Shown here: positions 677 through 9,284 of the stretch, piece by piece
How the letters are laid out: each line of letters opens with the position of its first letter
Position numbering within the stretch: the first letter of the stretch is position 1
NCBI GenBank assembly: GCA_020849575.1
Contig: JADLFY010000103.1
Span: 1-11,132 of the forward strand
Direction of reading: 5' to 3'
Length of the DNA stretch: 11,132 bases
Origin: Candidatus Peregrinibacteria bacterium
GTDB taxonomy: Bacteria; Patescibacteriota; Gracilibacteria; UBA1369
Notes under the pieces: generated by a model
Seen by the model: the letters and a program-made list of their open reading frames with translations, nothing else
What the model was told of the DNA's origin: nothing
The model's database searches: none
Translations under genes and position numbers: made by a program

Positions 677-1816
677 TTATTTTAATTTCTTTTTAATTAA
701 TTCTTCAGCTTCTTCCGCAGTCATATTTTGATAACCCTGACCTTTTGGAATAGCGGCATTTACTTTACCATTAGTCAGATAAATACCATAACGTCCCGAC
801 TTGGCTACTATACCATTACCAAAGTCTTTCAGAGCCGAACTGCTTTGTGGCGCGCCACCTTTTTTGCCTTTGCCGGAGAGATTAGCCGGGCTCTTGATAA
901 TCTTTTCTACATCTTCAATACTCAAAGTCATGGCATCATAACCTTCAGGAAGCGGACGATTTTTCCCGCCTACTTTGATATAAGGACCATATGGTCCGAC
1001 ATCAAAAATAACTTCTTCACCGGCTTTGGTATCACCAACTTTCTTTGGCCAGCTGAGAATTTCCACAGCCTGTTCCATAGTCAAATTCTCTGGAGACAAA
1101 AATCGCGGAATTGACTTCATCTTGAAACCATTGTCACCCTTTTCACCCATCTGCAAAAATGGTCCAAATCTACCCACTTTTCTAAAAATTTCCAATTCAG
1201 TTTCAGGATGTTTACCAATTGAATCAATTTCAGTTTTGGTATTTTCCAATAATTTTTCTGCAGCTTCTTCAGTCAATTCCGCTGGTGCTGTATCATCAGG
1301 GATTGGCGCTTTCTTTTCACCTTTTTCAATATATGGTCCGAATTTCCCGATTCTCACTTGAATTTCTTTGGTATCAGGTAAATTAATTGTACAGACTTCT
1401 CTGGCATCAATTTCCTGTTTGATCAGTTTTACCAAACCTTCATGATGGGGTTTGCCAAAATAAAAACTATCCAGATAAGGAATTGATTTTTTGTCACCTT
1501 CAGCAATTTTATCCAAATCTTCTTCCATCTCAGCCGTAAAGGTATAATCCACCAAATGAGTAAAATATTTTTCCATTAGTGAAACTACCGCATAGGCCAC
1601 AAAAGTTGGTACCAAAGCTGATCCCTGTTTAAATACATATTCACGTCTGACAATCGTATCCATAATCGTGGCATAAGTAGACGGTCTACCAATTCCTCTT
1701 GCTTCCAATTCTTTGATCAAAGACGCTTCAGTATATCTGGCAATTGGTTTGGTACTGTGTGCTTTTACTTCCATACTCTTTACCTCTGCCTTTTCTCCTT
1801 TGTTCAGTTCAGGCAA
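677..1816 (-). CDS. topA: DNA topoisomerase I, C-terminal part (downstream of an in-frame stop)
   Basis: This is the second half of bacterial type IA topoisomerase, continuing in the same frame after the TAA at 1838-1840. Coordinates start at the first possible start codon after the stop, a TTG at 1816-1814; seven further TopA-like codons (LEDQERI) lie between the stop and that TTG. Residues about 27-50 contain RYTEASLIKELEARGIGRPS, a hallmark of the catalytic core needed to complete the DNA-gripping domains. The rest holds four TopA C-terminal repeats with GxFGPYI-like cores at about 152-190, 208-256, 268-309 and 334-376. There is no CxxC zinc ribbon. An AGGAAAG seven bases before the TTG could allow reinitiation, although other genes here lack such sites and the same bases encode conserved residues. 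Without the stop the protein would be 841 residues, a usual TopA length. Whether this half is made is unknown. Confidence 0.85.
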   Translation of the reverse strand: MPELNKGEKAEVKSMEVKAHSTKPIARYTEASLIKELEARGIGRPSTYATIMDTIVRREYVFKQGSALVPTFVAYAVVSLMEKYFTHLVDYTFTAEMEEDLDKIAEGDKKSIPYLDSFYFGKPHHEGLVKLIKQEIDAREVCTINLPDTKEIQVRIGKFGPYIEKGEKKAPIPDDTAPAELTEEAAEKLLENTKTEIDSIGKHPETELEIFRKVGRFGPFLQMGEKGDNGFKMKSIPRFLSPENLTMEQAVEILSWPKKVGDTKAGEEVIFDVGPYGPYIKVGGKNRPLPEGYDAMTLSIEDVEKIIKSPANLSGKGKKGGAPQSSSALKDFGNGIVAKSGRYGIYLTNGKVNAAIPKGQGYQNMTAEEAEELIKKKLK

Positions 1817-1837
1817 AATTCTTTCCTGATCTTCTAA

Positions 1838-1840
1838 TTA
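1838..1840 (-). other. topA: In-frame TAA stop interrupting topA
   Basis: On the minus strand the reading runs GGSDDPEE-like codons, then TAA, then LEDQERILPELN with no frame change. In TopA homologues this stretch usually has an acidic residue followed by a similar run, so GAA to TAA is the simplest single-base explanation. TAA also ends most genes in this window, so general recoding of TAA is excluded. The choice between true nonsense mutation, read error and translational readthrough cannot be made from the sequence. Confidence 0.9.
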
Positions 1841-3202
1841 CTCTTCCGGATCATCTGATCCCTGTACATAGGCTTTCAGGAATCCGGCAAAAATAATCTG
1901 TTTACCGCTGGCCACAAAAACATGCTTCTCATCGGTTACTTCCACAATAGTCGACATCATCTTTGCTTCTTTCATTTGAGAGGCAATTGTTCTTTTCCAA
2001 ATCAATTCATAAAGTGCAGCTTCTTCATCAGTTAATTTCCCGCTTTTAGCCAAAGTTTCCGGCAAAGCAAAAGTTGAACCGGATGGTCTGATCGCTTCAT
2101 GCGCTTCCTGGGCATTTTTGATTTTTGAAGCAAATTGTCTTGGTTTTTCAGCAATATATTCTGCTCCATAAAGTTTAGTAGCCAGGCTTCGGGCCTCCTT
2201 TACTGCTGACTCAGCCAAAGTTGTCGAGTCAGTTCTCATATAGGTAATATAACCATTTTCATAGAGTTTCTGCGCTACCTGCATGGTCTTTTTGGCTGAA
2301 TAACGAAGTTTTCTGGCCGCCTCCTGTTGCAGGGTCGAAGTGGTAAATGGTGCTTCAGGATTTCTGGTAAATGGTTTTTGTTCGATTGAACCAATTTGAA
2401 AATCATTTTTCAGAATTGCTTCTTTCAAATCATTGGCTTCTTTCTCATTCAGATGAATTTTCCCAGTACCTTTCAGCTTTCCGGTTTCAGGATCAAAATC
2501 TTTACCATGTACCAGTTTTTTCCCGAAAATTTCTTTGAGTTCAGCACTAAATTTATCTTTTCTTTCACTTAAAAATTCTGCTGTTAAATCAAAATAACTT
2601 GATGGTTTGAATTTCTGGCGCATTTTTTCACGTTCTACTACCAGCCTGATAGCCACGGATTGTACGCGACCCGCCGACAGGCGGGGAGCAATTTTTTTCC
2701 ATAAAACCGGAGATACTTCATAACCATAAAGACGGTCCAAAATACGACGCGTTTCCTGGGCATGTACCAGATTCATATCTACTGTACGTGGATTTTTCAG
2801 GGCTCCTTGTATGGCTTCCTTAGTAATTTCATGAAATACCAGTCTTTTCACCGGAACTTTTGGTTTAAGAATTTCCAGCAAATGCCAGGAAATACTCTCT
2901 CCTTCGCGATCCTCATCCGTTGCCAGATAGAGTACATCGGCTTTTTTGATGGCATCCTTCAGTTTGCTGACCTGTTTTTTCTTGGTATCAGGAATTATAT
3001 ATAGTGGCTTGAAATCATGATCTACATCCACTCCCAACCTGGCCCATTTTTCACCTTTATGTTTTTCCGGAACTTCCTGGGCATTACTTGGTAAATCCCT
3101 GATATGTCCAATTGAAGCCTCTACCTGAAAATCCTTGCTCAGGAACTTAGAAATTGTTTTCGCCTTAGCAGGTGACTCTACTATTACTAAATTTTTCCCC
3201 AT
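1838..3202 (-). CDS. topA: DNA topoisomerase I, N-terminal part with Toprim domain and catalytic tyrosine
   Basis: These 454 residues form the N-terminal half of topoisomerase I (omega protein), which relaxes negatively supercoiled DNA by single-strand passage. The Toprim domain carries the catalytic glutamate E9 (VIVESPAKA) and the metal-binding DxDxE-type motif D96-E97-D98 with E100 (ATDEDREGE). The nucleophilic tyrosine is Y321 in GYITYMRTDST, matching Y319 of E. coli. SAGRVQS (177-183) and EAHEAIRPS (366-374) are further core motifs. The ORF stops at GSDDPEE, inside the core, so the fragment lacks the RYTEASL/GIGRPSTYA region and would probably not relax DNA alone. The ATG at 3202 matches the family start (MGKNLVIVESP). 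Its leader is AT-rich without a Shine-Dalgarno, and a good promoter lies about 60-95 nt upstream. Type IA activity is normally essential, which makes the interruption notable. Confidence 0.9.
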   Translation of the reverse strand: MGKNLVIVESPAKAKTISKFLSKDFQVEASIGHIRDLPSNAQEVPEKHKGEKWARLGVDVDHDFKPLYIIPDTKKKQVSKLKDAIKKADVLYLATDEDREGESISWHLLEILKPKVPVKRLVFHEITKEAIQGALKNPRTVDMNLVHAQETRRILDRLYGYEVSPVLWKKIAPRLSAGRVQSVAIRLVVEREKMRQKFKPSSYFDLTAEFLSERKDKFSAELKEIFGKKLVHGKDFDPETGKLKGTGKIHLNEKEANDLKEAILKNDFQIGSIEQKPFTRNPEAPFTTSTLQQEAARKLRYSAKKTMQVAQKLYENGYITYMRTDSTTLAESAVKEARSLATKLYGAEYIAEKPRQFASKIKNAQEAHEAIRPSGSTFALPETLAKSGKLTDEEAALYELIWKRTIASQMKEAKMMSTIVEVTDEKHVFVASGKQIIFAGFLKAYVQGSDDPEE

Positions 3203-7060: not shown

Positions 7061-8149
7061 TTATACTTTAGCGAAATCAGAAAGTTCACAACCGAATTTC
7101 TCATTTAGCAGATGATCTATTTCATCAGCTTTATTGGCTAATTCAGAAAAATTTCGCTGCAATTGTTCACGATCAACTGAATCCATATCACCCAGATAAA
7201 TTCTATAGGACAGATAAACCAGATTATTATTGATGCCCAAATAGAATGGAGCATGTGGCTGGCCCAAAATATATTTATAGAATTCTTCAATTTTATCCTT
7301 GGGTAATTTTACCAGTGGAGAAGTAGCACAAAGATAATAATTTCTCATAATAAAAATTCTGATCAAAGCACTTCCTTTGTGGAATTCCCAGAAATCCTGA
7401 CCTGACCTGGCAATTACCGGGTCGACCTGCATACCTTCAATAGCCTTTTCTACAAACAGTGCAATCGGACTTACCTGTGGTTCAGCAAAATATTTGGCCA
7501 CATCAACCTCCATTCCGCAATTCGGACAATATTCAATTTTATCAAAAATCAAATGATTACAGGAAACACATTTAAAGGAATATTTCATTTCCTTATTCTC
7601 GGCAAACGAATTCAATTCATCCAATAATTGATTTGCTGGCACGGCAAACCCGACATTATCAGCATTATTAAATTTGCAGGTAGTTACACCAATCACTTCA
7701 CCTCGTGAATTTACCATTGGTCCACCACTATTTCCCGGATTTACGGCAGCATCAGTCTGAATATAGCGTTTGCCATCCAACAGCTGATCGGCAGATGAAA
7801 TAATACCATTGGTAATAGTGAAAGGCATTCCAAAAGGGAAACCCAGCACTGACACCGGTTCCATACTTTGAATATTTTCTACGGATTGCACAGTCAGACT
7901 GGGCAAATCCAAGGGGCCTTCAGGTAAAAGAAAAGCCAAATCATAAGTCGGATTGATAAACACGACTTTAGCCGGGAAACGGTCTTTATTTTGTGTTTCC
8001 AGACCTACACGCATAAATCCGGAAATGACATGATAATTGGTCACGATAATTCCTCTATCCTTCAGATAGAATCCGCTCCCACTGCCCGCAGCCGTGCTTA
8101 TTTTTACTACGGCTCTCGATAATGCTTTTAAATCAGTTGTAATATCCAT
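7061..8149 (-). CDS. Cytoplasmic trypsin-like serine protease with zinc ribbon and C-terminal YbjN/chaperone-like domain
   Basis: This 362-aa protein combines three parts. Residues 1-180 are an S1C (HtrA/Deg-like) trypsin fold with complete triad H40 (TNYHVISG), D70 (TYDLAFL) and S141 (NPGNSGGP). Residues 192-213 form a zinc ribbon with C194xxC197 and C208xxC211. Residues 225-362 are an alpha/beta domain that I tentatively liken to YbjN or type III secretion chaperone-like folds. HtrA proteases usually have a signal peptide or membrane anchor plus PDZ domains; this one has none of these, so it should act in the cytoplasm on substrates recruited in another way. The C-terminal domain aligns by eye with the upstream gene product, including NxADxxD(x4)EKFG. 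The ATG lies 7 nt after that gene's stop, so the two are very likely cotranscribed and coupled. Protease and ribbon calls are firm; the third domain's family is inference. Confidence 0.85.
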   Translation of the reverse strand: MDITTDLKALSRAVVKISTAAGSGSGFYLKDRGIIVTNYHVISGFMRVGLETQNKDRFPAKVVFINPTYDLAFLLPEGPLDLPSLTVQSVENIQSMEPVSVLGFPFGMPFTITNGIISSADQLLDGKRYIQTDAAVNPGNSGGPMVNSRGEVIGVTTCKFNNADNVGFAVPANQLLDELNSFAENKEMKYSFKCVSCNHLIFDKIEYCPNCGMEVDVAKYFAEPQVSPIALFVEKAIEGMQVDPVIARSGQDFWEFHKGSALIRIFIMRNYYLCATSPLVKLPKDKIEEFYKYILGQPHAPFYLGINNNLVYLSYRIYLGDMDSVDREQLQRNFSELANKADEIDHLLNEKFGCELSDFAKV

Positions 8150-8156
8150 GGTAAAT

Positions 8157-9284
8157 TTATTGGTTAGAAACTGTCGGATTGGTCATTTCCATAACTGTAT
8201 TAGCTGCTTTCCAAAGAGCCTCAGAAGCCAGCTTCCATTCTTTTTGACTGGCATTTTTTAATCCTTCATTGAGAATTTTGGTGATTTCAGCTGGAATTTC
8301 ATTCCGGAAATAAAGATTAAATATTCCATACATCAGGCTAAGTGTAGCCCCGATATGATCGGCACTGCCCATTTCATTTTTGGCCCGATCATAGAAAGTT
8401 CGGAGATTATTTTGAATTGCTGCAATATCAGATCTGGTCTTGGATGAAATGAAAACATTGGGTTTATACATACATGAGGCAAATTTGGCCCGGTCAAAAG
8501 TTTTCAGTTTTTCCAAAACCAATTTGGCCTTGGCAATTAAATCAGGTAATTGTGCCTGAGCTCCCAGATCAAAAATTCCTTTTTCAATTTCTGTACGTAT
8601 ATATCCCTGTGTACCACAGTAATAATCAATTTTCATAAAAGTCATCGCCAAAGTATCCCAGCAAAAACCAAAAAATCTTTTACTTTCAAAATAAGCCAGG
8701 TAATCAGTAGCTTCTTTTAAATATTCCTGATATTTCTGCCAGCCTTTTTCTACGTCTCCTTCCGCCCATTGTGTGGCCTGAACTTCAACCATTCTCTGTG
8801 CACCAAATTTCTCTATGAACATGTCATCATAATAATCGGCATTATTACAGATCTCTCTAAAAATATCGTAGAGTTTATAAGGATCGCATAATTCAATTGG
8901 GCATTTGTATTCAAACCACAGCTCATCGTTTTTCATCACTATCTGGGTCAGAACAAGTATATTGAAATTGATGTCCGCAACCTGTCTGAGTAATGGCAAG
9001 CCTCCAGTAGCCGGAACCCTTACAAAAGGAGCTGACACAAAAAACATATTATCCTTCAAAGTAATTGTCAGTCTGATCGACCCATGTGGAATTACAAATT
9101 CACTTTGATCCGGATTGCTATGTTTATCAAAAATACTTCCATCTATATATCTCAGTGTTGCCAAAACTGCCTCTCTATAATTTTTTGCCTCAAAGGTCTG
9201 CATAACCGTTGGCCAATAAGCTATGTTTAGCTTGCTGGTACTAATCCCCAGCAGGGATTCATCAAAAATGGGTGCCGTATTCAT
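8157..9284 (-). CDS. Uncharacterised protein with YbjN/chaperone-like domain, partner of adjacent protease
   Basis: I do not recognise this 375-aa protein as a named family. It has no signal peptide or membrane helix and should be cytoplasmic. Residues about 30-161 form an alpha/beta domain with strands around 62-90 and 108-128 and a terminal helix NNADYYDDMFIEKFG (147-161). This matches residues 339-353 of the adjacent protease (NKADEIDHLLNEKFG), and the preceding GS-I-N-P-V spacing also agrees, so the two share a domain. Residues 165-370 look wholly helical with several Trp and Tyr and end in EALWKAANTVMEM, possibly a repeat-like or protein-binding scaffold. The protease follows after 7 nt in the same operon. 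A role as adaptor, inhibitor or substrate of the protease is inference from this arrangement. The ATG at 9284 follows an A/T-only leader. Confidence 0.75.
   Translation of the reverse strand: MNTAPIFDESLLGISTSKLNIAYWPTVMQTFEAKNYREAVLATLRYIDGSIFDKHSNPDQSEFVIPHGSIRLTITLKDNMFFVSAPFVRVPATGGLPLLRQVADINFNILVLTQIVMKNDELWFEYKCPIELCDPYKLYDIFREICNNADYYDDMFIEKFGAQRMVEVQATQWAEGDVEKGWQKYQEYLKEATDYLAYFESKRFFGFCWDTLAMTFMKIDYYCGTQGYIRTEIEKGIFDLGAQAQLPDLIAKAKLVLEKLKTFDRAKFASCMYKPNVFISSKTRSDIAAIQNNLRTFYDRAKNEMGSADHIGATLSLMYGIFNLYFRNEIPAEITKILNEGLKNASQKEWKLASEALWKAANTVMEMTNPTVSNQ

Follow-up and report, generated by a model that had tools for sequence, protein, structure and literature searches.

The closest described counterparts of the gene reported here are bacterial DNA topoisomerase I (TopA) chains of solved structure (6pcm_A, 5d5h_A and 1ecl_A), which resemble it in having a Toprim domain, PF01131 and C-terminal repeats in one frame and which align with it across the position of an internal stop codon. 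Two-part type IA topoisomerases have also been described, and both the split topoisomerase I (NEQ045-324) and the split reverse gyrase of Nanoarchaeum equitans are reported from an organism with a small genome (PMC3655853, PMC1175954). A related genome is reported to share the reverse gyrase split, at an identical site, whereas topoisomerase I is unsplit in that relative (PMC3655853). A review names a further type IA enzyme, the heterodimeric reverse gyrase of Methanopyrus kandleri, as the exception among otherwise monomeric structures (PMC7534307). Escherichia coli lacking topoisomerase I is reported not to be culturable unless compensatory mutations are present (PMC3313902). Interrupted genes may also arise in the course of assembly: a survey of 126,564 genomes attributes many of the internal stops found in assembled bacterial genomes to assembly errors, which it links with coverage and platform (PMC11017572). 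The spurious pseudogenes of that survey share with our gene the combination of a single in-frame stop, an otherwise intact conserved gene and a draft genome.

The stretch of DNA analysed here, hereafter the window, is 11,132 bases long and constitutes the entire contig C103 of a 790 kb draft genome that is spread over 143 contigs and is 53% complete. The window carries topA, and its other protein-coding genes have no internal stops. Within positions 7061-9284, two genes on the same strand stand 7 bases apart: the upstream one has as its sole match, weak and below cut-off, the YbjN/CesT-type chaperone family PF22551, and the downstream one encodes a trypsin-like protease (PF13365). A search of the 53%-complete draft with the PF01131 profile found no second type IA topoisomerase besides the window topA. 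This search had been suggested in the preliminary description, and its outcome favours a single gene, if weakly at this level of completeness and with 14 of the 60 other contigs consulted consisting of N.

The topA gene forms a single reading frame with exactly one internal stop and no frameshift (Table 1). The Toprim domain (PF01751) and the Topoisom_bac domain (PF01131) both score above their cut-offs, and the pieces upstream and downstream of the stop match consecutive positions of PF01131 (E 5.5e-124, with '1 TAA' inside the match), so the two halves belong together and are not neighbours by chance. As expected of a TopA, the Toprim and Topoisom_bac domains are in register, the catalytic-core residues are kept, and DEDREGE and Tyr321 are present, the latter corresponding to the active-site tyrosine of the family; the single uninterrupted open frame of the family is broken by the TAA at 1838-1840. 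One base change is all that this TAA requires; of the 840 sense codons in topA, 333 are a single substitution away from a stop. The preliminary description had claimed that a single in-frame TAA splits topA and leaves both halves intact, that the frame is unchanged past the stop with the next codons still resembling TopA, and that the lesion is a point change. Each of these statements held: the 841-codon frame contains one stop, LEDQERILPEL beyond it aligns with intact relatives, and one frame from end to end rules out a frameshift or deletion. Its placing of domains was likewise borne out, with the Toprim domain and the tyrosine of YMRTDS, correctly numbered 321, upstream of the TAA and with the RYTEASL/GIGRPSTYA core and four C-terminal repeats downstream.

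Table 1. Features of the interrupted topA in the window, and other deep in-frame stops in the same draft genome
Feature	Position	Strand	Description
topA, DNA topoisomerase I	677..3202	-	841 codons; terminator TAA at 677-679; one internal stop
Internal TAA	1838..1840	-	Residue 455 of 841
Upstream open frame, 454 aa	1838..3202	-	Toprim domain and PF01131 profile positions 2-293; Tyr321
Downstream open frame, 379 aa if from TTG 1814-1816	677..1816	-	PF01131 profile positions 297-407 and four Toprim_C_rpt stretches
Tyr321 codon	2240..2242	-	In YMRTDS
DEDREGE motif	2897..2917	-	Toprim domain, residues 96-102
RYTEASL and GIGRPSTYA motifs	1670..1738	-	Residues 489-511, 3' of the stop, near-invariant region
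Variable acidic loop	1814..1840	-	Contains the TAA and an in-frame TTG eight codons on; AGGA before the TTG
Further deep in-frame stop	L125 4567-4569	-	TGA
Further deep in-frame stop	L129 2906-2908	+	TGA
Further deep in-frame stop	L230 19587-19589		TAA

Conservation is equally strong on the two sides of the TAA. Against 29 aligned relatives, none of the 141 invariant columns is broken in the window TopA (0/110 upstream and 0/31 downstream), and dN/dS relative to G001 was 0.103/1.50 upstream (~0.07) and 0.124/1.49 downstream (~0.08), ratios that are rough because synonymous sites are near saturation. Both halves have thus been under similar, strong constraint until now. Had the stop been there for long and the second half gone unused, traces of this should be visible. 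Decay of the gene was ruled out, as both halves are conserved, with the caveat on the ratios that dS is close to saturation.

We therefore turn to the relatives, whose topA genes the preliminary description had proposed for comparison. When 40 relatives were searched with the N-terminal half, 37 gave a match besides the genome itself, those in G011 and G015 being short pieces. The closest sequences, by identity over this half, were those of G001 (86%), G007 (83%), G003 (79%), G002 (77%) and G005 (74%), and in all five of these topA is uninterrupted and has glutamate at the column of the TAA. Two more distant genomes (G013 and G039) also have glutamate there, but in a gapped part of the alignment. 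Within the family, the PF01131 match is free of stops in all 11 other genomes that have one, and one further genome has no match. Among 379 genomes (0.4-2 Mb) sampled across the phylum, probably Patescibacteria, 362 have a PF01131 match and the window genome alone has an in-frame stop within it (0/361 of the others); this count concerns the matched stretch rather than the full length of the gene, some matches being fragments at the ends of contigs. A split shared with related genomes was therefore found neither in the family (0/11) nor in the phylum sample (0/361). Elsewhere in this sample, G188 has topA as two adjacent pieces in different frames (L264 and L265; contig C8, 10998-12918), located elsewhere in the gene than the window TAA, and its genus mate G209 has an intact topA. 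In G381 there are two full-length PF01131 genes, on contigs C10 and C7, with frames of 802 and 656 aa. A scan of viral contigs with the C-terminal half of TopA found no relative.

Members of this one family carry topA of two types. In a 48-row tree built from the N-terminal half (root for drawing only), the topA genes of the window, G001, G002, G003, G005 and G007 (L003-L007 and window 1841-3202) group with those of Planctomycetota, Actinomycetota and other phyla in a group of 28 rows with support of 100/100, while those of the same-family genomes G004, G008, G009, G010 and G012 (L017, L018, L021, L026 and L028) group with the rest of the order. The named rows were 20 picked from the best matches to the window protein in a scan of named genomes; among the matches listed (at least 80 loci) all were distant relatives, the best having 61% identity. 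This pattern has probably arisen because topA was replaced, or two types were sorted, within the family, and it is perhaps more interesting than the TAA.

In order to place the TAA against the background of other lesions, genes of the window and of 60 further contigs from its draft, 14 of which consist wholly of N (281 kb in readable form), were paired with frames from relatives, dropping hits below 40% identity and open reading frames below 100 aa. In-frame stops were called deep if at least 30 alignment positions from either end; those nearer an end, which are likely end effects, were counted apart (2 for the window genome, G000; 8 for G001; 4 for G002/G007). Deep stops occurred in 4/156 gene pairs of the window genome (topA and 3/155 others), 1/209 of G001 and 0/192 of G002/G007. 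The excess over the relatives (4/156 versus 1/401; Fisher p 0.023) is suggestive only, because it gives p 0.068 without topA and disappears once the pairs are restricted to those with 60% identity or more (1/113 for the window genome, 1/133 for G001 and 0/98 for G002/G007; 1/113 versus 1/231, p 0.55). The three other deep stops in the window genome's draft, of which that in L125 splits a PGA_cap family gene, are in genes 44-50% identical to those of the relative, and these genes may be genuine pseudogenes. A mutational-damage signature was considered as a source of the stops, which were too few for it. Frameshift-like breaks numbered 0 in the window genome, 1 in G001 and 1 in G002/G007.

The deep stop of G001, a congener of the window genome, is an in-frame TAG in a gyrA-like gene (L137, around 5522, contig C6) with a same-frame ATG directly after it. 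By its resemblance we take this gene to be gyrA; the TAG presumably lies close to where the C-terminal domain is delimited, and it too may be an error like the one proposed for topA. The gyrA of G016 has a TGA plus a frame break, so that lesions were seen in 2 of the 37 genomes (G001 and G016) matching the 462-residue gyrA piece. With gyrA affected in these two relatives, isolated lesions belong to the background of this group's drafts even where a gene is expected to be essential. The three further deep stops in the window genome's draft likewise show that isolated stops do occur in such drafts.

Our analysis suggests, with a probability of roughly 0.6, that the single in-frame TAA in topA is an error of the consensus base in a fragmentary draft genome. 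The point lesion, the intact relatives, the undecayed halves and the further isolated stops in this draft and those of relatives are what we observed, and we infer that the assembly, and not the cell, has the wrong base. This reading is favoured by the state of the draft (143 contigs, 53% complete), by the uninterrupted genes of 5/5 close relatives, by the stop-free PF01131 matches of 11/11 other family members and 361/361 others of the phylum sample, by the lack of decay in either half, by the other deep stops of the draft and the gyrA lesions of relatives, and by the published survey of internal stops (PMC11017572). Conversely, the stop excess is weak, the sampled part of the draft has no frameshift-like break, the neighbouring genes of the window are uninterrupted, and the loop with the TAA is variable, a place in which a genuine interruption should be least harmful. 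If the base is an error, the living organism would carry one ordinary, uninterrupted topA, whose product would relax negatively supercoiled DNA as does other bacterial topoisomerase I. Four explanations had been listed in the preliminary description, of which a base-call error and a recent nonsense mutation fit the evidence while readthrough and a two-piece enzyme gained no support.

The TAA may instead be real and of very recent origin, a nonsense allele carried by a single strain or a fraction of the population and either harmful or tolerated via second-site changes, with no special use for the halves. We consider this unlikely, though it deserves to be weighed: a single substitution is enough, undecayed halves fit a recent event as well as they fit an error, and E. 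coli without topoisomerase I is reported to become culturable after compensatory mutations arise (PMC3313902). Furthermore, topA may not be indispensable throughout the group, because 17 of the 379 phylum genomes have no PF01131 gene, although drafts miss genes; searching these 17 with the intact G001 TopA as query found none there either. Some of them (e.g. G395, G205, G243 and G393) are 94-100% complete in 2-7 contigs. Loss of the type IA topoisomerase from these 17 genomes is possible, as is absence of the relevant sequence. Against a nonsense allele, no type IA gene other than the window topA was found in the draft, so that a null allele would be costly, and a consensus drawn from a population should reflect whichever allele is common. 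Compensation was looked at in the gyrA piece alone (462 codons, cut by the contig start), which is an open frame. Were the stop real and tolerated, nature would have put to the test whether topoisomerase I can be divided or missing in a bacterium with a reduced genome.

Use of the gene in spite of a genuine stop is far less plausible. Decoding of the TAA often enough to yield full-length TopA, by a suppressor tRNA or context-dependent readthrough, would fit a frame that is open and conserved past the stop, but in the sampled draft more frames of 100 aa or longer end in TAA (121) than in TAG (60) or TGA (27), which rules out reassignment of TAA, and two of the three other deep stops are TGA. 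No ochre-suppressor tRNA was found among the 11 tRNAs of 46 other contigs and the 2 of the window, a scan of part of the genome, and readthrough thus seems very improbable. It is equally hard to credit that translation ends at the TAA and restarts at the TTG eight codons on, the pieces assembling into a working topoisomerase I. Such an arrangement would agree with the full conservation of both halves and with an in-frame TTG suitably spaced from a preceding AGGA (only 20 of the 830 codon positions tested in topA are followed by this combination), and split type IA enzymes are known from reduced archaeal genomes. The predicted structure of the intact G001 TopA (mean pLDDT 81.9) places the break in a low-confidence loop between confident blocks, with mean pLDDT of 53 for residues 451-460, where the stop lies, compared with 85 and 92 for the flanking strand blocks (431-440 and 471-480). 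Because the codon lies in a variable loop of low confidence, a break at residue 455, and with it a two-piece enzyme, is structurally conceivable in this model. However, none of the relatives searched (the 40 relatives, the family and the phylum sample) has the split, AGGA-like motifs are as frequent in shuffled leaders (3/121) as before the ATG starts of draft frames that reach 200 aa or more (3/121), G001 has nearly the same purine-rich codons at the TTG site in an intact frame, and one sequence cannot show fixation. A promoter just before the second piece was also ruled out, with no promoter-like site found on the minus strand from the topA start to the TTG and 7 such sites in the region versus 6.6 in shuffles. 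If true, the two-piece reading would mean that in this one lineage a type IA topoisomerase gene of a small-genome bacterium has only just begun to split, by a single point mutation.

A consensus error thus remains our preferred reading, and it carries a warning: where a single internal stop interrupts a gene expected to be essential in a draft genome, as in topA here and in the gyrA of two relatives, the reads should be consulted before it is taken as biology. Among the systems with which we began, the spurious pseudogenes of bacterial assemblies are reported to have been proven by reassembly and by near-identical genomes (PMC11017572), whereas the window topA is known from one consensus sequence. 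Bacterial relatives of TopA are one uninterrupted chain, and the window topA differs from them in its in-frame TAA. The existence of split type IA enzymes in N. equitans and M. kandleri means that the two-piece idea is not absurd, yet little in the window points to it. The archaeal reverse gyrase of M. kandleri is described as having been isolated as an enzyme (PMC7534307), whereas for the window gene there is a single sequence. Finally, the halves of the N. equitans reverse gyrase are reported to be encoded by noncontiguous genes (PMC1175954), whereas those of the window topA are contiguous, in frame and one codon from intact.
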